64,000 nucleotides of DNA from Natronosalvus amylolyticus (lineage in GTDB: Archaea; Halobacteriota; Halobacteria; Halobacteriales; Natrialbaceae): assembly GCF_024298845.1 (NCBI RefSeq), contig NZ_CP101156.1, forward strand, positions 3,100,001-3,164,000, written 5' to 3'. Under the pieces are notes generated by a model. The model saw nothing but the letters and a program-made list of their open reading frames with translations, ran no database searches and was not told the DNA's origin. Shown here piece by piece: positions 6,615 through 18,858 of the stretch. The translations under genes were made by a program, and so were the position numbers. Within the stretch, counting starts at the first letter, position 1. Each line of letters starts with the position of its first letter.

Positions 6615-8663
6615 ATGATGGTGACGCCGACACAGGCCGTCTTGTTCGTGACGCTCGTCGCCGCGCTCGCCTTCGGCTGGTTTTTCGCCAGCGAAACGCG
6701 CGACCGGTGTCGAGCGCACCTCGAGCGTCGCTTTCTGTATGGCGTTCCGTGGGGAACCCTGGTGACCGTCGCGGTCGTCGTCGCGTTCTATCTGTTCGCA
6801 CAGGGGGGTCTTCGAAACTGGAACGACCCGCTCATCTATCCGTACGTCACCTGGTCGTACTTCTACCCGACGGGCGTCCTCACGGCGGGTATCGCTCACG
6901 GCTCGGTCGCACACATCCTCTCGAACATGTCGGCGACGCTCGTGTTGGCTCCCATCGCCGAGTACGCCTGGGGGCACTTTTCGCCTCGAGACGACGCTGA
7001 CGGTGAGAACGACGAAGAGACCGGTCGCTCGAGCGACGAGGGGGTAGGTACCGGAACGATTGACGACTCGATGGCCGGTTCCGAAACCGGTCGACCGCCG
7101 CTTCGGACGGATGGGGCAGGGGATGAAGCTGAGGCGGACAGAGGGGGAGCCAACGAAGGTGTAACAGGCGTTGATGGGGGTACGGGCGCTCGAGCCGCGG
7201 GCATCTTGCAACGACCGTGGATCCGCGCCCTCGTCGTCTTCCCCGGCGCACTGCTGGGGATGGCTCTCCTGACCTCGACGTTCTCGATGGGGCCGGGGCT
7301 CGGCTTTTCCGGTGCCGTATTCGCTATCGCTGGCTTTGCACTCGTCACCTACCCCCTCGCGACGGTAGTTGGTGTCGCCGCGAGCGCGGCACTGAGTACG
7401 GTGTTGACCGCGCTCAACACACCTATCGTCCGCGCAGGTATCGAGACTGGACCACCGTCGCCCCCAGGCTGGGCGGGAATCGGGTTTCAGGCCCACATGC
7501 TCGGCTTTCTGCTAGGCGTGCTCCTGGCAATCGGATTGCTCGCCGTCCGAACCGACCGGCAACAACCGAGACCGTCCGCCGGGCGACTCTTCGGGGCGAC
7601 GGTCCTCTTTGGCCTGGCGCAGTCGCTCTGGTTGCTCGCGTTTCCGGGTGGAGAGGACACGTTCGTCCTCTATCGTGGCGCTGGCGTCGTCCTCGTGTTT
7701 CTGTTGGCTATTGGGATTACGCTCGCCGTCACGGGAAGTACTCGGCCCCTGCCGCGAATCTTCTCGAGTGCGTCCCGGGTTCCCTCGAGGCGACAGGTGG
7801 GCGCGTTCTGGCTGGTCTTCCTGGGACTCGTATTTGCCGGGACGGTCGTCGGGGCCTTCGCGTCGGAGACGCCCGTCGTCCCCGTCGCTGGCGTCGCCGC
7901 CTTTTTCGTGTTTCTGTTCGGGGTCCCGGCGGTAGTGGCTGTGTTCCCCGACCGACTCCGGCCAGGTTCGGGGCCGGTCACGCGACGACAGACGGTCACT
8001 GTCTGCCTGCTGGTGTTTACGGTGCTGGTCGCCGCACCCAGTCTCCCGCTGAGTCTGGGCGTCGTCGATGACGGAACGGTGCCCGCCGGCGAGGTCAGGG
8101 CTGGCGATTACGCGGTGAGTTACGCCGAGAACGCGACCAGCGGCCAGACGCCCGCCGTCGACTTCGGGGACGACGAACTCTTTTCGAGTCAACAGAGTGG
8201 CGTCATCGTCGTTAGCGAGGACAGACAGCTCTGGACGGTCGCCGTCCGCGAGGAGGTGCTCGCCCACGAGGGCAACGATACCGTCCACGTCGGCGGCTTC
8301 GGTTGGCGGGAAACGATTGCGGTCGACCGGCACGGCTGGAACGTCGTCGGCAACGACACCGCCTACGTCGTCGACCTCGAACTGGACGGCGAGACCACCC
8401 GGTCGTTCGCCTCCGAGCCGTCGACCGCGAACGTCCGTCTCGACGGCCACGAGCTAACGGTGGTTCCGGGCGAGGAGGTCTCGATGCAAGTCACTCGAGA
8501 CGGTGAGACGGTGGGCGAGGCCGCGATTCCGTCGGTCGGTGACCGTGTCTCGGTCGGCCCGCTCGAGATCCGAACCGAAACCGTCGATGGCGACGTTCGC
8601 GTGGTCGTCGACGACGGCGAGACGCAGGTACAGGTCGCCGAACGCGAGGAGTTTTCGAGCTAA
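6615..8663 (+). CDS. Rhomboid-family intramembrane serine protease with long extensions
   Basis: A 682-residue membrane protein. Rhomboid hallmarks are the HGSVAHILSN segment (His95, His100, Asn104), the nucleophile motif GFSG at 230-233 (Ser232) and the catalytic histidine in GFQAHMLGF (His294). Two features are unusual. About 75 hydrophilic residues (roughly 122-196, rich in Asp, Glu, Gly and Thr) split the second and third conserved helices. After the rhomboid core come further membrane helices (about 320-490) and a soluble C-terminal domain of about 190 residues rich in beta-type sequence, probably extracytoplasmic. Starts at 6615 and 6618 are equivalent. The substrate is unknown. Confidence 0.85.
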   Translation: MMVTPTQAVLFVTLVAALAFGWFFASETRDRCRAHLERRFLYGVPWGTLVTVAVVVAFYLFAQGGLRNWNDPLIYPYVTWSYFYPTGVLTAGIAHGSVAHILSNMSATLVLAPIAEYAWGHFSPRDDADGENDEETGRSSDEGVGTGTIDDSMAGSETGRPPLRTDGAGDEAEADRGGANEGVTGVDGGTGARAAGILQRPWIRALVVFPGALLGMALLTSTFSMGPGLGFSGAVFAIAGFALVTYPLATVVGVAASAALSTVLTALNTPIVRAGIETGPPSPPGWAGIGFQAHMLGFLLGVLLAIGLLAVRTDRQQPRPSAGRLFGATVLFGLAQSLWLLAFPGGEDTFVLYRGAGVVLVFLLAIGITLAVTGSTRPLPRIFSSASRVPSRRQVGAFWLVFLGLVFAGTVVGAFASETPVVPVAGVAAFFVFLFGVPAVVAVFPDRLRPGSGPVTRRQTVTVCLLVFTVLVAAPSLPLSLGVVDDGTVPAGEVRAGDYAVSYAENATSGQTPAVDFGDDELFSSQQSGVIVVSEDRQLWTVAVREEVLAHEGNDTVHVGGFGWRETIAVDRHGWNVVGNDTAYVVDLELDGETTRSFASEPSTANVRLDGHELTVVPGEEVSMQVTRDGETVGEAAIPSVGDRVSVGPLEIRTETVDGDVRVVVDDGETQVQVAEREEFSS

Positions 8664-10871: not shown

Positions 10872-11702
10872 TCAATCGGCGTCGATCGTACAGGTGTGTT
10901 CGTAACTGACGTCGCTGACGGAGTCGATGGCCGGCTGGTCGCCACAGACCGGGCAGTTCGGGTTGCGCTGGAGTTCGACCGTCTCGAAACTCATATCCAT
11001 CGCATCGTAGAGCAACAGGCGTCCCTCGAGGACGTCCCCTTGCTCGAGTAGCAGTTTGACGACTTCGGTGGCCTGGATACAGCCGACCGTACCCGGTAAG
11101 ACGCCGAGGACGCCCGTGGTCGCACAGTCGGGAACGGTGCCGGGCTCGGGCGCTTCCGGGAAGACACACCGGTAACAGGGGCCGTCGCTTCCCTCACGGT
11201 TCGGTATCGTCGTCACCTGGCCTTCGAAGCGGTAGATAGCGCCGTGGGACAACGCGGTCCCCGAGAGCACGCAGTAGTCGTTGAGCAGGTATCGCGTCGC
11301 GAAGTTGTCGCTCGCATCCAGTACGACGTCGTACTCGCCCGCCAGTTCGTCGACGTTTTCGGAGGTGAGACGTGTCTCGTACGTTTCGACGGCGACGTCC
11401 GGGTTGAGTCGGTGAACGTAGTCGGCCGCGCTCTCGACTTTCGGCCGCCCGACGTCGTCGTCGTCGTGGACGATCTGGCGCTGGAGGTTCGAGCGCTCGA
11501 CGACGTCGTCGTCGACGATGCCGAGGTGGCCGACGCCGGCCGCCGCCAGATACTGAATCGCTGGGGAACCGAGGCCGCCGGCACCGACGACGAGAACGGA
11601 CCCCTCGAGCAGCCGTTTCTGTCCCTCGGGACCGACTTCGTCCATGATGACGTGTCTCGAGTAGCGGTCCAGTTGGGTCGCATCGAGGCGAAGGTCGCTC
11701 AT
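10872..11702 (-). CDS. ubaA: Ubiquitin-like protein (SAMP)-activating E1 enzyme UbaA
   Basis: A 276-residue MoeB/ThiF/E1-family adenylyltransferase. The nucleotide motif VVGAGGLGSPA lies at 38-48 and DDDVVERSNLQRQ at 64-76. Paired CxxC zinc sites are at 176-179 and near the C-terminus (CPVC), and the probable thioester cysteine is Cys193 in PDCATTGVLG. In haloarchaea UbaA adenylates SAMP proteins for protein conjugation, tRNA thiolation (with NcsA) and molybdopterin synthesis. ncsA (59819) and moaC (46516) are elsewhere in the window. MoeB/ThiF is the alternative name, but in haloarchaea one enzyme serves these roles. Confidence 0.93.
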   Translation of the reverse strand: MSDLRLDATQLDRYSRHVIMDEVGPEGQKRLLEGSVLVVGAGGLGSPAIQYLAAAGVGHLGIVDDDVVERSNLQRQIVHDDDDVGRPKVESAADYVHRLNPDVAVETYETRLTSENVDELAGEYDVVLDASDNFATRYLLNDYCVLSGTALSHGAIYRFEGQVTTIPNREGSDGPCYRCVFPEAPEPGTVPDCATTGVLGVLPGTVGCIQATEVVKLLLEQGDVLEGRLLLYDAMDMSFETVELQRNPNCPVCGDQPAIDSVSDVSYEHTCTIDAD

Positions 11703-11898: not shown

Positions 11899-12084
11899 AT
11901 GGCATCTTCACCCAACGGTGCCGGTGACGACGTGTTCGACCAGTTCCTTGCAGACCGCGGCCACGCGGTAGAACGAACAGGTTGGGAACGCGATTATAAC
12001 AAAAAACAGTGTCCGGACTGTGGCGGCCTTCACGACACGTCCGCGACAACCTGTACCGTCTGTGGGTGGCGTCCACGACCCTGA
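11899..12084 (+). CDS. HVO_0416-type small zinc-finger protein
   Basis: A 61-residue protein with two CxxCG knuckles, CPDCGG and CTVCGW, forming one predicted zinc ribbon in its C-terminal half. The middle segment GWERDYNKKQCPDCG is highly characteristic of a conserved haloarchaeal small zinc-finger family that I recall as HVO_0416. The function is unknown. The start is set by the TATA box at 11867. Two inverted repeats in its promoter suggest tight regulation. An oligo-T tract follows the stop. Confidence 0.88.
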   Translation: MASSPNGAGDDVFDQFLADRGHAVERTGWERDYNKKQCPDCGGLHDTSATTCTVCGWRPRP

Positions 12085-12590: not shown

Positions 12591-14462
12591 ATGGCTACGA
12601 CGGAGGCGGATACGGAGGTAACCCGTCTATTTGGCGGTCCTGGCAGCGGGAAGACAACAGCTCTCCTCGATCACGTCGAAGAGATACTGGAGCAAGACGA
12701 CGTCACGTTTCGGGACATTCTGGTCGTCTCGTACACTCGAGCAGCGGCACAGGAAATTCGCGAACGACTCGCCGAGCGGCTCGACGAAAACCCTCGAGCG
12801 CTACAGGGCAACGTCTGTACGATGCACGCGAAAGCGTACGATCTTCTCGATCTTTCTCGCGGCGACGTCATCGGCGAAAAGGACAAAGAGACCTTCTGTG
12901 AAGAGTACGGCCTCGAGTACGAAGACGAGTACAGCGGGGCCGGTCGCCGGACGGCCCGGTCGACCACCATCGGGAACAAGATTATCGCGACGAGTCAGTG
13001 GCTCCAGCGAACCCGTCGTGACGTCGCCGACTGGTACGACGTACCCTTCCAGTGGGACGTCGAAGAGGTTCGACTCCCGCCCGAAATCGACCCGAACGCG
13101 CAGGAAGGCAACAAGTACACGCCGACATGGCCCTCGGACGACGACCGAATCGACGTCCCCGAAGCGATCAGAGGCTGGCGCAACTACAAGGGCCAGGAAG
13201 GGAAAATCGGCTTCGCCGACATGCTCGAGCGCGTCAAACAGCGCTCACTCGTGCCGAACGTCGACTACCTCGTTATCGACGAGTTTCAGGACATTACGAC
13301 GCTACAGTACGACGTCTACGAGGAGTGGAAACCCCACGTCGACCGCGTGTTGATCGCCGGCGACGACGACCAGGTCGTCTACTCCTGGCAGGGGGCCGAC
13401 CCGGCACTCTTGCTCGACGAACGCGTCGACGACGACATCATCCTGCCGAACTCCTACCGACTTCCATCGAACGTGCTCAACGCGGTCAACCAGGAGATTC
13501 GCCACATCGACGTTCGACAGGATAAAGACCTGAATCCCCGCAAAGAGGGTGGGCTCGTCGAAGCCTACCAGAACCGATCGATGCTCGATGTCGTCCGGAT
13601 GGTCCGCCAGACGCTCGTCGAAGGCGACGGAACGATCATGCTCCTGTTTCGGGCACGCTACCAGATGTTCCAGTTCATCGATGAGTTCATCACCGAGGGG
13701 ATTCCCTTCACTGCGCTGACCGACCAGCGGATGTGGACCGACCGACTCACCCAGTACGTCCGAGCGATCGAAGCCCTCGAGAACGACGACGACGTCACCG
13801 GCCTGCAGGCTCGGCGACTCGCCGACATGCTGATGGACTCGGCGTTTGGTACCAACGAACGGGACGCCCTGTTCGACGAAATTGACGACCGCCAGGAGGA
13901 AGCCGGCATCGAGGACCTCGAGGACCTGCTCATCCCGGCCGACGTCATTCGAGACCACGCGCCGTTCCTCCCCGGCCCGGCTTCGGCCTCCGACATGGTG
14001 CGGAAGGTGACGAACTTCCAGAAGAAGTCGATCAAGGCCTACTTCGCCATCGGCACCTATCAGGGGATGCCGACCGATCGCGTTCGCGTCGGAACGATTC
14101 ACTCGGCGAAAGGTCGTGAGGCCGACCACGTTTTCGTCGGCACCGACCTCACCGAGAAGGTCGTCGAGCAGATGGTCGCGACCGTCGACGACCCGACCGA
14201 CATCCCCGGCGTCGAAGAGTTCACCAAGACCACCTCCCCCGTTCCCGTCCTCACCGACAACGAACGGCGCGTCTTTTACGTCGGTATGTCTCGAGCCCGC
14301 GAACGGCTCGTCCTCCTCGAGAATCTGGTCGACGGTGCGCCGACGCTACCGATCGACGTCTTGCTCAACAACCGCCAGACAGGTGCTGACCTCGAGGAAC
14401 TGGTCGAGCAGGCCCAACAGCCCGAATCCGATCGTCTCGAGGAGGCCGAAGTCGAAGCGTGA
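12591..14462 (+). CDS. UvrD/PcrA-type superfamily 1 DNA helicase
   Basis: A 623-residue SF1 helicase. Motif I is GGPGSGKTT (15-23), motif Ia contains SYTRAAAQEIRERL, motif II is DEFQD (230-234), motif III is GDDDQVVYSWQGADP, motif V is TIHSAKGREADHV and motif VI is VGMSRARERLVLLE. It lacks a long nuclease-type C-terminus, so it is a stand-alone translocase. UvrD-type enzymes act in repair and replication-restart and on displaced strands. Its stop overlaps the GTG start of the next gene, so the two are translationally coupled. Confidence 0.93.
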   Translation: MATTEADTEVTRLFGGPGSGKTTALLDHVEEILEQDDVTFRDILVVSYTRAAAQEIRERLAERLDENPRALQGNVCTMHAKAYDLLDLSRGDVIGEKDKETFCEEYGLEYEDEYSGAGRRTARSTTIGNKIIATSQWLQRTRRDVADWYDVPFQWDVEEVRLPPEIDPNAQEGNKYTPTWPSDDDRIDVPEAIRGWRNYKGQEGKIGFADMLERVKQRSLVPNVDYLVIDEFQDITTLQYDVYEEWKPHVDRVLIAGDDDQVVYSWQGADPALLLDERVDDDIILPNSYRLPSNVLNAVNQEIRHIDVRQDKDLNPRKEGGLVEAYQNRSMLDVVRMVRQTLVEGDGTIMLLFRARYQMFQFIDEFITEGIPFTALTDQRMWTDRLTQYVRAIEALENDDDVTGLQARRLADMLMDSAFGTNERDALFDEIDDRQEEAGIEDLEDLLIPADVIRDHAPFLPGPASASDMVRKVTNFQKKSIKAYFAIGTYQGMPTDRVRVGTIHSAKGREADHVFVGTDLTEKVVEQMVATVDDPTDIPGVEEFTKTTSPVPVLTDNERRVFYVGMSRARERLVLLENLVDGAPTLPIDVLLNNRQTGADLEELVEQAQQPESDRLEEAEVEA

Positions 14463-15595
14463 GCGAGCGGTCGGTCGGTGCTTCGGGGAACGGTTCCGTT
14501 TTTGATACCGTCCGAGCGACGCGGTTGCGAGACGTGCTCGAGGAGCGTGGAGCAACGGCGTTCGTCCACGCCGGGACGCTGGGTGACCCGACGATTCGAT
14601 TCGCCGTCCGGGCGTGCAGGGCGTCGTGTCCCGAGGGCGAGCGCTTCGAGTCCCCGACGCGGGTACAGCATGGGACGGTGTACGCCGTCGGTTTCGACGG
14701 CGAACGGTGGCACAGCGTTTCGAAGCCGCCACGCGACGGTGGCGATCATCCATCACAGACGCTCGGTGAATCCCTCCTCGAGGCTGAGATAGATGGCGCG
14801 GGGAGGAACTTGCGACTCTTGACGCCGGCGCACATCCCCCACGACGCCGCGCTGTATCTCGAGCGGGCCGGGTTCGAACTCGCCTCGAGTGACGTGCTCT
14901 CTCGACTCCGAGTCAGGAAAACGGAGCCCGAACTGGCCGCGATCGAACGTGTACAGGAGGCGGTCCGTGCCGGGCTCGAACGGGCGATGTCCCTGCTCGA
15001 GAAGGAGTCTCCGACCCCGGGCCGTCTCGAAACGGCGCTCGAGGTGGGCGTCCTCGAGGCTGGTGGTCGTCCCGTCTCGAGTGCCGTCGTCTGGACGGGG
15101 GCGAACGGGGGTGTCACAGACGGCGACCCGACAGCACCACTGCCGACTGACCGGCCACTGATTCTCACCGTTGAAGCGAGCAACGCCGGCTACTACGGCC
15201 GACAGACGCGAACCCTCGTCGTCGACCCGGATGGCGGTCCCGAACGACGGGGTCACATCGGACTCACCCACGGGTTTCGCTCGGTGCAATCGCTGCTCAC
15301 GGCAGGCGAGGCGACGGTGGGGACCGTCGAGGCCGACCTCGAGGCCGAAATCCGGGCGTTCGGGTTCGACGAGACGGCTTCAATCGAGGTACAGGTCAGC
15401 GGTGTCGGCCTCGAGGGCCTCGAACGGCCGCTTCAGGCAGGCACGACCATCGAACGTCGGTCGCCGGTCGTGGTGGATGCGAGCCTCGTGACGAGCGTGG
15501 GTCGGATTCGCCTCGCAGACGTGATCGTTCGTACAGGCGAACGAGCACGGTGGCTTTCGCCTGCCTCGCGGTCGCTCGTTCCAAAGAACAGGTAG
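14459..15595 (+). CDS. Degenerate M24 (creatinase/aminopeptidase-fold) protein
   Basis: A 378-residue protein starting at GTG and overlapping the helicase stop by 4 nt. The C-terminal half follows the pita-bread fold of M24 peptidases (the RKTEPELAAIERVQEAVRAGLE helix, then an SAVVWTGANGG strand). The expected metal ligands are missing, however. The usual VDxG...SDITRT region reads VEASNAGYYGRQTRT, the histidine motif reads VSGVGLEG, and no terminal glutamate pair is evident. I therefore infer a non-enzymatic binding protein. Coupling to a helicase suggests a DNA or chromatin role. Confidence 0.72.
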   Translation: MSERSVGASGNGSVFDTVRATRLRDVLEERGATAFVHAGTLGDPTIRFAVRACRASCPEGERFESPTRVQHGTVYAVGFDGERWHSVSKPPRDGGDHPSQTLGESLLEAEIDGAGRNLRLLTPAHIPHDAALYLERAGFELASSDVLSRLRVRKTEPELAAIERVQEAVRAGLERAMSLLEKESPTPGRLETALEVGVLEAGGRPVSSAVVWTGANGGVTDGDPTAPLPTDRPLILTVEASNAGYYGRQTRTLVVDPDGGPERRGHIGLTHGFRSVQSLLTAGEATVGTVEADLEAEIRAFGFDETASIEVQVSGVGLEGLERPLQAGTTIERRSPVVVDASLVTSVGRIRLADVIVRTGERARWLSPASRSLVPKNR

Positions 15596-15735: not shown

Positions 15736-16197
15736 TCAGTCGACCCGGAACAACCGGTAGGAGCCCTGTCCGGTCGCAACCTCGGTCGTCTCGCCGTCGG
15801 GTGTCGTACTTTCGACGGTGATCTCGCTGACGCCGACGCTCTGGCCGGCCCGCACGATGGTGGCCGTCGCCTCGAGGTCGCCCGTCGCCGGGCGCAGGTA
15901 GTTGACGTTGAGGTTGATGGTCGCGGCACCGGACTCGGTCGGCTTGTCGAAGTCGGTGTGGAAGACGAGGCCACCGACGGTGTCGATGAGCGTGGCAGCG
16001 ACGCCGCCGTGGATATCCGGGCGGTGGTCGCCACGGCCGGGCCGGGTGTTCGTGAGCTTTTCGTCGTAGGGTATCGCCATCGTCATCTCGCCGTAGTCGA
16101 CGTGCTCGACGGTCGTCCCCAGCCAGGAGAGAAACTCGTGGTCGGTATCGATATGTGTCTGTAAAATGGCTCCCATCTGCTCGAACGACTCGGACAT
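15736..16197 (-). CDS. PaaI-family hot-dog thioesterase
   Basis: A 153-residue hot-dog protein. The active-site helix carries HGGVAATLIDTVGGL (His63, Asp72), followed by LNVNYLRPATGDL, as in PaaI/YbgC-type acyl-CoA thioesterases. The acyl substrate is unknown. I chose the ATG at 16197 (MSESFEQMGAI). The open frame extends further upstream, but only through a palindromic repeat element (16287-16369), so that extension is not real protein. Confidence 0.87.
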   Translation of the reverse strand: MSESFEQMGAILQTHIDTDHEFLSWLGTTVEHVDYGEMTMAIPYDEKLTNTRPGRGDHRPDIHGGVAATLIDTVGGLVFHTDFDKPTESGAATINLNVNYLRPATGDLEATATIVRAGQSVGVSEITVESTTPDGETTEVATGQGSYRLFRVD

Positions 16198-16286
16198 ACT
16201 CTCGAGTGTGTGGGCCAGTGATTTGTGTCCTGCGTTTAGCCGTCCGCTCGAGTGGGTAGTGATAGTCGCCATCGATCGCGACGAGA

Positions 16287-16369
16287 GGCTTCCCAAACCT
16301 GAACGAATGCGTGAAACCGATTGCAGTTGTCCGGTTTCACTCATCAGTCGACGTTTGGAAGGGTACTAG
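16287..16369 (-). repeat. 83-bp palindromic repeat, copy A
   Basis: Read on the minus strand, this element matches 27661-27743 at 76 of 83 positions with no gaps. It is itself a long imperfect palindrome, with about 30-nt arms ending in gtgaaaccg / cggtttcac (16311-16319 and 16332-16340) around a 12-nt loop. It occupies the spacer between the divergent thioesterase and TusA genes. Confidence 0.9.
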
Positions 16370-16383
16370 ATAGATGGTTCTTG

Positions 16384-16407
16384 CTATATTGGAATTACCA
16401 CACAATA
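16384..16407 (+). promoter_or_regulatory. Putative promoter and inverted repeat of the sulfur operon
   Basis: A TATA-like ctatatt (16384-16390) overlaps TATTG (16387-16391), which is mirrored by CAATA (16403-16407) 11 nt later. The predicted transcript start is near 16412, giving tusA a leader of about 30 nt. The repeat is short, so an operator role is tentative. Confidence 0.35.
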
Positions 16408-16442
16408 CTAACTACCTCGAGGAAGTAGGTTCAGTCGTACCC

Positions 16443-16685
16443 ATGACTGATACCGAAATCGAGCCGACCGAAACTGTCGATTCACGCGGCGCTGCCTGCC
16501 CGGGACCGCTAATGGACCTCATCGGGAAAATTCGGACCGTCGAGAGCGGTGACGTGGTCTGTCTGCTCAGCGACAACGACCAGTCGCTTACAGACGTCAG
16601 GGAGTGGTCCGAAGAGGCGGGTAACGAACTGTTGGCAGTCGAAGAACTCGAGGATTACTACGAGTTCTACGTGGAGAAGGCATGA
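16443..16685 (+). CDS. TusA-family sulfurtransferase
   Basis: An 80-residue TusA/SirA-fold protein. The sulfur-carrying cysteine is Cys19 in RGAACPGPLMDL, the hallmark CPxP motif. These proteins carry persulfide sulfur between enzymes. It overlaps the flavoprotein start by 4 nt and begins an operon of sulfur-handling genes, so a role in passing sulfane sulfur to or from the SQR-like enzyme or rhodanese is likely. The start MTDTEIEP at 16443 is preferred because the TATA-like site lies within the upstream extension. Confidence 0.9.
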   Translation: MTDTEIEPTETVDSRGAACPGPLMDLIGKIRTVESGDVVCLLSDNDQSLTDVREWSEEAGNELLAVEELEDYYEFYVEKA

Positions 16686-17827
16686 GCGAACACATCGTTA
16701 TCGTCGGTGGCGGGACGGGCGGTGCCGTCCTCGCGAACGGGTTGGCAACCCACCTCAGGGCGGAGATTGCCAGTGACGACGTTCGCGTTACGCTCATCAA
16801 CGACGAACCGGACCACATCTACAAACCGGTCTGGCTGTACGTTCCTTTCGGCCTCCGTGAACCCGAGGACGCACGACGCCCGCTCGAAGAACTGGTCGAC
16901 GACGCCGTCGACGTCAGGATCGATCGCGTCTCGGATATCGATACCGAGAACGGGACGCTCGCCCTCGGTGTGACCGAACGGTCGTTGTCGTACGATCACC
17001 TCGTACTAGCGACGGGCTCACAGCTTGCGCCCGAGGAAATCCCCGGTCTCGCTGACGCGGGTCATCACTATTACGGAGAATCGGGCGCGACCGACCTTCG
17101 CGAGGAACTGCTCTCGTTCACGGACGGGCATCTCGTATTGAGCGTCATCGGGTCGCCGCACATGTGCCCGGCCGCACCACTCGAGTTCGTCTTCATGGCC
17201 GACGACTGGTTCCGAAAGCGAGGCCTCCGCGAGGACGTCGACATCACGTACACGTACCCGATTCAGCGCGTCCACGGGAACCCACACATCGCCGATTGGG
17301 CACAACCCCTGATGGAGTCGCGCGATATCTCCATCGAGACGTTCTTCAACCCGGAGGAAGTCGACCCCGAAGCCGACGTTCTCCACACACTGGAGGGGTC
17401 CGAACTCGAGTACGACCTGCTCGTCGGGATTCCACCCCACCGCGGGAGCGAGCTGATCGAATCGGCCGGGTTGGGCGACCGTGGCTGGGTGGACGTCGAC
17501 AAGCACACCCTCGAGGCAGACGGGGCAGCGAACGTGTACGCGATCGGTGATGCCGCCGCCACCGGCGTCCCCAAAGCAGGCAGCGTCGCTCACTACCAGG
17601 CCGGCGTGGTCACTCGCCGTCTCGCGAGCGAGGTTCGGGACCAGCTCCCGACGGCACGCTATGACGGCAAAACCCTGTGCTTCATCGAAACGGGGATGGA
17701 CGCCGCTTCCTACGTCGAGTTCGATTACAAGAACCCACCGTCGCCAGCGAAACCGTCTCAGAAACTACACTGGGCAAAACTCGCGTATAACGAATCCTAC
17801 TGGCTCACCGCACGGGGGCTCCTCTAA
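16682..17827 (+). CDS. Sulfide:quinone oxidoreductase-like flavoprotein
   Basis: A 381-residue FAD protein of the SQR/NDH-2 group. It has IVIVGGGTGGAVLANGL at 5-21, the LVLATGSQ motif near 107-114, and the second FAD motif NVYAIGDAAATGVPKAG at 284-300. Cys162 in PHMCPAAPLEF and Cys333 in TLCFIETG match two of the three classical SQR cysteines. I see no third, so it may be a variant type. The C-terminal helix (KLHWAKLAYNESYW) is typical for membrane association. It sits within a TusA-DUF1641-rhodanese operon, which strongly supports sulfide or persulfide oxidation. Confidence 0.85.
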   Translation: MSEHIVIVGGGTGGAVLANGLATHLRAEIASDDVRVTLINDEPDHIYKPVWLYVPFGLREPEDARRPLEELVDDAVDVRIDRVSDIDTENGTLALGVTERSLSYDHLVLATGSQLAPEEIPGLADAGHHYYGESGATDLREELLSFTDGHLVLSVIGSPHMCPAAPLEFVFMADDWFRKRGLREDVDITYTYPIQRVHGNPHIADWAQPLMESRDISIETFFNPEEVDPEADVLHTLEGSELEYDLLVGIPPHRGSELIESAGLGDRGWVDVDKHTLEADGAANVYAIGDAAATGVPKAGSVAHYQAGVVTRRLASEVRDQLPTARYDGKTLCFIETGMDAASYVEFDYKNPPSPAKPSQKLHWAKLAYNESYWLTARGLL

Positions 17828-17829
17828 CG

Positions 17830-18453
17830 ATGACTGATTCGACAGCTGTCGACACGAACCAGGATGCCCTCGAGGCGGCCATCGCGGAAAACCCGGAGGC
17901 GGTCGCCGAGTTCGTCGATCGACTCGACGCGGTCAACGAACTCCTCGACGTCCTCTCGCTGGGCGAAAATGCCCTGACCGACGACATGGTCGTCGAACTC
18001 GCAGACACCGGATCGACGCTCGCCGAATCCGCCGACGAAATCGCGACTGATGAAACGGTCGGGCTCGCCGCAGCGGTCGGAACGAACGCGGGTGAGCTTA
18101 CGGACGCACTCGAGACGCTGGTCGAACTCCAGCAAAGCGGCACCCTCGAGAACCTCACTGAACTGGCACAACTGGCGTCGCTGGCGACCGATGCGCTCGA
18201 CGACGAGATGGTCACCTCACTCGCGGCGACGGGGGCTGGGGTCGGCGAACTGGCTGATGCTGCATCGGATCCCGATACCCGCCAGGGAATCGAACGGACG
18301 CTCGCCGGTCTCGGCCAGGCCGAACGGGAAGCTGTCGAGCCCGTTGGCCCGGTTGGGCTGGTCAAGGCGCTTCGAGATCCGCAGGTGCAGGCGGGGCTTG
18401 GCTATCTAATAGCCGTCGCGGGGGCACTCGGGGAGTCAACGCCGACCCGGTAA
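17830..18453 (+). CDS. DUF1641 protein
   Basis: A 207-residue, strongly acidic, alanine- and leucine-rich helical protein starting 3 nt after the flavoprotein stop. The regular LxxLxELxxS pattern and terminal VGLVKALRDPQVQAGLGYLIAVAGALG are typical of DUF1641 proteins, often encoded beside SQR-type or formate dehydrogenase-type flavoproteins. The glycine-rich end may contact the membrane. The biochemical role is unknown, and I infer an accessory or membrane-docking role for the SQR-like enzyme. Confidence 0.82.
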   Translation: MTDSTAVDTNQDALEAAIAENPEAVAEFVDRLDAVNELLDVLSLGENALTDDMVVELADTGSTLAESADEIATDETVGLAAAVGTNAGELTDALETLVELQQSGTLENLTELAQLASLATDALDDEMVTSLAATGAGVGELADAASDPDTRQGIERTLAGLGQAEREAVEPVGPVGLVKALRDPQVQAGLGYLIAVAGALGESTPTR

Positions 18454-18489
18454 CTGAAGCGTTTTTGTTGCCGAGGGCAAGTGTATAGT

Positions 18490-18858
18490 ATGGCCACTAT
18501 CACCCCATCTCGATTCGACGAGAAGCGGGACTCGAGCGACCCGTTCGTGTTGGACATTCGCCCGACCGACTCGTTCGAACGCGAGCACATCGAGGGGAGT
18601 TATAACGTGCCGGTGTACTCGGACCTCCAGCGTGGCAACGAGGATTCGTTTCGCCGACGACTGGACGAGATTCCCGGCGACCGTCCGGTTGTCGTCGTCT
18701 GTAAGGCCGGTATCGTCGCTCGCAAGGCGACGGCGATTTTGGACGACGAAGGCCACGAGTCGATGACACTGTTGGGTGGCATGGGCGCGTGGAACGGCTA
18801 TCAAAAAAACTCACTCGGGTACAAAATTCGATCGCTGGTGTGGAAACTCACGCGGTGA
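18490..18858 (+). CDS. Rhodanese-like sulfurtransferase
   Basis: A 122-residue single rhodanese domain. The motif LDIRPTDSFEREHIEGSYNVP and the active-site loop VCKAGIVARKAT place the persulfide cysteine at Cys71. It closes the TusA-SQR-DUF1641 cluster after a 36-nt gap containing a T5 tract, so it may have partial independent expression. It probably exchanges sulfane sulfur with TusA. The C-terminal basic stretch SLGYKIRSLVWKLTR may bind membrane. Confidence 0.9.
   Translation: MATITPSRFDEKRDSSDPFVLDIRPTDSFEREHIEGSYNVPVYSDLQRGNEDSFRRRLDEIPGDRPVVVVCKAGIVARKATAILDDEGHESMTLLGGMGAWNGYQKNSLGYKIRSLVWKLTR

Follow-up and report, generated by a model that had tools for sequence, protein, structure and literature searches.

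The UvrD helicase of Haloferax volcanii is HVO_0415, and deletion of its gene causes no sensitivity to UV or MMC (PMC7776575). The protein has been co-purified with Cas1, alongside UvrA and UvrB (PMC9051519). The CPXCG zinc-finger protein HVO_0416 (PMC6560208) is its neighbor by locus numbering. In H. volcanii, short overlaps between genes couple translation by termination-reinitiation, and the products of 45.2% of the gene pairs spaced by −8 to +10 nt form heteromeric complexes, as compared to 5.6% of those spaced by more than 20 nt (PMC10666635).

The M24B peptidases, such as PepQ, the Pyrococcus prolidase, and aminopeptidase P, have a two-domain pita-bread fold. The N-terminal domain of Spt16 (Spt16-NTD, FACT) and Ebp1/PA2G4 have the M24 fold without a peptidase site and work by binding; both are eukaryotic and were inactivated separately. 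More generally, dead M24 folds in other systems bind proteins. Here, we describe a haloarchaeal locus in which a gene for an M24-fold protein directly follows that of a UvrD-type helicase.

Organization of the Locus

The window is the whole stretch of DNA that was analyzed, 64,000 nucleotides from Natronosalvus amylolyticus. The helicase gene (12591..14462, + strand, with the ATG start at 12591 and the TGA stop at 14462) encodes a UvrD/PcrA-like SF1 protein of 623 aa, in which the motifs GGPGSGKTT, DEFQD, QGADP, VGTIHSAKGREADHVFV, and YVGMSRARERL can be read and whose matches to the Pfam families UvrD-helicase (PF00580, 2e-29) and UvrD_C (PF13361, 9e-13) identify it as a UvrD-type SF1 helicase. 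It shares the SF1A motifs and domains with bacterial PcrA, UvrD, and Rep, but it is shorter and falls below all of their NCBIfam equivalog cut-offs (TIGR01073, PcrA, 103 vs 911 bits; TIGR01075, 95 vs 1144 bits). With scores so far under the cut-offs, we place it on a separate branch of the UvrD-type helicases.

Upstream of the helicase lies the gene of a CPXCG zinc-finger micro-protein of 61 aa (CPDCG...CTVCG; 11899..12084, + strand). Such a gene is present in 79 of 102 loci, nearly always upstream of and on the same strand as the helicase, and also in lineages that have no M24 gene. The H. gibbonsii locus itself has the gene order zinc finger, helicase, M24. This order, together with the numbering of the zinc finger HVO_0416 next to HVO_0415, makes the window helicase very probably the orthologue of H. 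volcanii UvrD, which is a member of the same SF1 helicase family; the assignment relies on locus context and numbering. The M24 gene of H. volcanii would then be HVO_0414, a predicted assignment; the literature searched contains neither a mention of HVO_0414 nor a discussion of an M24 partner of UvrD in this organism. The zinc-finger micro-protein is a possible third member of the module.

The gene downstream of the helicase (14459..15595, + strand, GTG start and TAG stop) encodes a protein of 378 aa with the fold of M24 enzymes (prolidase/aminopeptidase P) that has lost the five metal ligands. The open reading frames are exactly as described in an earlier, sequence-only reading of this DNA, the helicase stop overlapping the GTG in a 4-nt GTGA (14459..14462, + strand). 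The resulting spacing of −4 nt on the same strand lies within the −8 to +10 nt range of the termination-reinitiation type (PMC10666635). As to the translational coupling proposed in that reading, the overlap is of a type known to couple translation in Haloferax, and coupling in the present species is inferred on that ground.

Metal Site and Fold of the M24 Protein

The M24 protein matches the Pfam family Peptidase_M24 (PF00557, 2e-6, 28 bits vs a cut-off of 23) and zero NCBIfam models, including that of archaeal PepQ (NF040821, cut-off 630 bits). Even the intact orthologues, at 88-106 bits, are far short of the latter cut-off. As the alignment used to anchor the ligand columns includes orthologues that keep the canonical D-D-H-E-E set, these columns are set by real sequence and involve no guessing. 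In the window protein they read L236 or T237 (depending on the alignment), R248, S314, D340, and A353, which bears out the proposed loss of all the metal ligands. The fourth column alone retains an acid, D340 in the window and usually D or E across the Natrialbaceae. The substrate-side His residues are lost too, and the neighboring signatures ADLH, HGVG, SLHE, EPGVY, and RIEDL are absent. In the 31 Natrialbaceae sequences, the other ligand columns hold varied non-ligand residues, which argues against a shifted replacement site, and no intact ligand set was found at shifted positions in any of them. The DDHEE set of an active M24 metallopeptidase is thus confined to relatives of the window protein.

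The AF2 model of the window protein, calculated with a 26-sequence alignment, has a pLDDT of 88 and a pTM of 0.86. The best structural matches are Xaa-Pro dipeptidases/prolidases (VIA-align Z 29.5, 3.4 Å, 332-334 residues), followed a little lower by Spt16-NTD (Z 27.0 and 25.3), with aminopeptidase P and creatinase also close behind. Both the profile (28 bits) and the model (Z 29.5) accordingly place the protein in the M24 fold superfamily, as had been suggested from the sequence. Since all of these matches have the same two-domain architecture, the likeness to Spt16 is a likeness to the whole superfamily. A phmmer search with the single window protein returned zero matches among the PDB sequences, and a profile built from 26 M24 sequences matches prolidases. 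The window protein has the same full-length fold as PepQ, the Pyrococcus prolidase, and aminopeptidase P (Z 27-29), and the DDHEE, HGVG, and EPGVY motifs of these enzymes are common to the intact orthologues; it differs from them by the absence of the metal ligands and by the coupling of its gene to uvrD.

Conservation of the Gene Pair

The helicase orthologue is found as a single copy in 141 of the 146 sampled Halobacteriales genomes, with identities of 56-94%, and no match to it was found at 1e-60 in the rest of the phylum. In 71 of these 141 genomes, the M24 gene lies directly 3′ of the helicase gene on the same strand, so that the pair is conserved in haloarchaea far beyond chance. The families (f1 to f17) were named via the nearest helicase of named loci: f1 corresponds to the Natrialbaceae, f4 is Haloarcula-like, f5 includes Haloferax, Halorubrum, Halolamina, Haloprofundus, Halobellus, and others, and f12 includes Halobacterium. 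The pair occurs in all 20 sampled f1 genomes, in all those of f5, f7, and f14, and in 14 of the 17 of f12; f16 contributes one further case, an M24 fragment at the end of a contig. At the sampled loci of f2, f3, f4, f6, f8, f10, f13, f15, and f17, of which mostly 5 kb was read, the M24 gene was not found.

Taking the start closest to the helicase stop, an in-frame M24 start is located at −8 to +10 nt in 49 of 52 M24-bearing loci. No unlinked copy of the gene was recognized, the linkage to the helicase holding in every M24-bearing family. The conserved pair ends with the M24 gene, because, in the locus comparison, the thioesterase gene that follows in the window (15736-16344) was seen next to the pair in the nearest genome and in no other; this candidate for a third conserved operon gene was therefore rejected. 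Compared with the helicase, the M24 protein has a much higher rate of evolution, and about half of the helicase-bearing genomes lack it; the helicase therefore does not require it.

No paper in the literature searched connects a haloarchaeal UvrD to an M24 gene, in agreement with the earlier statement that such a complex is undescribed. This literature describes neither the pairing nor its spread, nor the repeated inactivation at the locus; the parts themselves are of known kinds, a UvrD helicase and an M24 pseudopeptidase.

Repeated Loss of the Metal Site

The DDHEE set is intact in 18 of the 74 M24 sequences tested, while 56 are dead. Intact forms occur in f14, in several genera of f5 (Haloprofundus, Halogeometricum, Halolamina, and most Halorubrum), and in one f12 genus. 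The dead forms carry differing residues, such as SAGRT in Haloferax and AAYER in Halopenitus, and are also found in Halobellus, Halohasta, Halonotius, Halobacterium, one Halorubrum-type locus (L089), all f7, and all Natrialbaceae. The intact state is taken to be ancestral, since the regaining of five ligands is implausible.

If losses are irreversible, the helicase tree requires at least 7 of them when branches with a support below 95 are collapsed, and 9 when they are not; the starred branches alone force 6 changes. The unrooted M24 tree requires 2 changes, and the dead forms cluster more on it than on the helicase tree; this is expected for rapidly evolving sequences and may reflect long-branch attraction. 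A single old clade of all dead forms is rejected by the M24 data (AU p 0.003, with the caveat of long branches), while a single clade of all f5 (Haloferacaceae-type) forms, intact and dead, is not (AU p 0.26). These results are thus better read as vertical inheritance accompanied by repeated loss.

Given the intact orthologues at the same position and the Xaa-Pro dipeptidases as best matches, the haloarchaeal M24 protein is a repeatedly inactivated peptidase, separate from the Spt16-like lineages. The Spt16/chromatin analogy of the sequence-only reading is thus not sustained. The locus shares with Spt16-NTD and Ebp1/PA2G4 the fold without a peptidase site, and it differs from them in that active-looking relatives are kept and the loss recurs.

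In the Natrialbaceae, the dead form is maintained under purifying selection. The frames are undisrupted in all 20 f1 genomes and open in all 31 dead Natrialbaceae sequences. The dN/dS values, which were obtained by the simple Nei-Gojobori method and are hence indicative only, are 0.23-0.48 for dead M24 pairs, with about 0.25-0.45 in the Natrialbaceae. Close intact pairs mostly lie at 0.13-0.28, and the helicases of close pairs at about 0.04-0.18. About 80 positions of the Natrialbaceae M24 sequences are conserved at 90% or more. The residues P127-H128-D129-A-A131..E135, S143, R151, K154, Q166, R251-T252, G259-G260, R263-R264, E297, G315/G317, E322, and P324 are kept in both the intact and the dead states. 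The M24 gene is frame-shifted in two genomes (loci L092 and L128); together with its disappearance from several lineages, this indicates that the retained function is useful but dispensable.

Proposed Role of the M24 Protein

Given the close spacing, the conserved linkage, and the loss of catalysis under continued selection, the M24 protein most likely acts without catalysis, by binding UvrD or an assembly that contains UvrD. We consider this proposal to have about an even chance of being correct. In the suggested scenario, the ancestral partner of UvrD would have been an Xaa-Pro-peptidase-like protein with an intact metal site. Termination-reinitiation would match the synthesis of the M24 protein to that of UvrD, and the protein would serve as an accessory or regulatory subunit bound to UvrD itself or to a repair assembly that includes UvrD. 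The binding would employ catalysis-independent surfaces, for example the PHDAA...E hinge region; the codons of P127-HDAALYL-E135 (14837..14863, + strand), a motif common to intact and dead orthologues, constitute a candidate non-catalytic site. The peptidase activity would have been a second function that could be dispensed with, as the genome encodes 6-7 other M24 proteins to cover it. In lineages where the binding role could be dispensed with too, the gene would have decayed or disappeared, as in the Haloarcula-like f4, in f3 and f10, and in part of f12.

A more specific version of this proposal, to which we assign somewhat less than an even chance, is that haloarchaeal UvrD has the M24 protein as its dedicated accessory subunit. 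The two would form an undescribed two-protein repair module, for which a peptidase fold was recruited to bind and then lost its active site at least 7 separate times. The repair complex that was suggested earlier is likewise inferred. The lack of a UV or MMC phenotype of the H. volcanii uvrD deletion (PMC7776575), the much faster evolution of the M24 protein, the absence of its gene from about half of the helicase-bearing genomes, and the decay of the gene in L092 and L128 speak against a binding partner. A model of a fused helicase-M24 chain, obtained by reading through the stop in a Natrialbaceae MAG (L108), was calculated with a 44-row alignment in which 6 rows were paired. Its pTM is 0.45, and the poor prediction of the helicase half makes it uninformative about an interface.

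H. volcanii is a main genetic model of archaeal repair, and a conserved partner gene directly 3′ of uvrD is a concrete ground to re-examine a helicase whose deletion has no UV phenotype there. In addition, a single locus has lost the same active site repeatedly, and its intact and dead forms can be compared between sister lineages. This makes it a natural experiment of unusual clarity on how a metabolic enzyme turns into a non-catalytic binding protein, the same step that lies behind eukaryotic Spt16 and Ebp1.

The strongest alternative, though in our view a less likely one, is that the M24 gene is an operon passenger. An intracellular peptidase of the Xaa-Pro type would have come to share a transcript with uvrD, and its dead forms would have some other conserved role, unrelated to the helicase, in binding a peptide, a metabolite, or a protein. 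It would account for the matches of the intact forms to prolidases and aminopeptidase P and for the decoupled evolutionary rates and presence of the two genes, and 54.8% of the close H. volcanii pairs are indeed non-complexes (PMC10666635). It is more difficult to reconcile with the absence of recognized unlinked copies and with a helicase linkage and close spacing that persist across the M24-bearing families.

Rather improbable is the possibility that a redundant peptidase gene is in slow decay under relaxed selection, the dead state being the stage before loss. The loss of the gene in f3, f4, f10, and part of f12, the frame-shifted genes of L092 and L128, the presence of 6-7 further M24 proteins in the genome, and the dN/dS of dead pairs somewhat above that of close intact pairs would all fit. 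However, the 31 Natrialbaceae sequences are all dead yet open, with dN/dS well below 1, and they have lineage-specific fixed residues and a confident fold predicted from a dead-rich alignment.

Some of these fixed residues raise the question of a different, non-metal active site in the dead form. Some residues fixed in the Natrialbaceae differ from those of the intact forms (P44, P98, P205, H266, S275, L294, and V313), and H266, S275, and E295 are conserved specifically in this family. Yet the former active-site positions vary freely and the residues differ between the dead lineages, making a new catalytic activity very unlikely. Least probable of all is an Spt16-like chromatin factor that binds archaeal histone or DNA together with the helicase, since, despite the match to Spt16-NTD (Z 27.0) and the binding of proteins by dead M24 folds elsewhere, prolidases match equally well or better, intact orthologues occupy the same locus, and the protein is a single M24 unit of 378 aa with no further Spt16-type domains and zero matches to the Spt16 families of Pfam.

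Other Features of the Locus and Its Relatives

A ThiF/MoeB-like E1 gene (10872-11702, − strand) is divergent from the zinc-finger, uvrD, and M24 genes of the window. It has the same place in 24 of the 102 loci, which comprise nearly all those of the Natrialbaceae, three of f7, and one of f3. Further downstream in the window (16374-18858), genes for a TusA-like protein, a sulfide:quinone-oxidoreductase-like flavoprotein, a possible DUF1641-type protein, and a rhodanese follow in series, in what looks like a sulfur-handling cluster as judged from the sequence.

Two individual loci can also be mentioned. In L092, from a Halorubrum-type genome (G033), a frameshift splits the M24 gene (6860-8304) while the helicase is intact, i.e., the locus is in mid-decay. 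In L075 (G060, probably Haloquadratum), it is the helicase frame that shifts, near residue 582, and the matches resume in another frame; this frameshift is either real or an assembly error, and the M24 neighbor is highly divergent.
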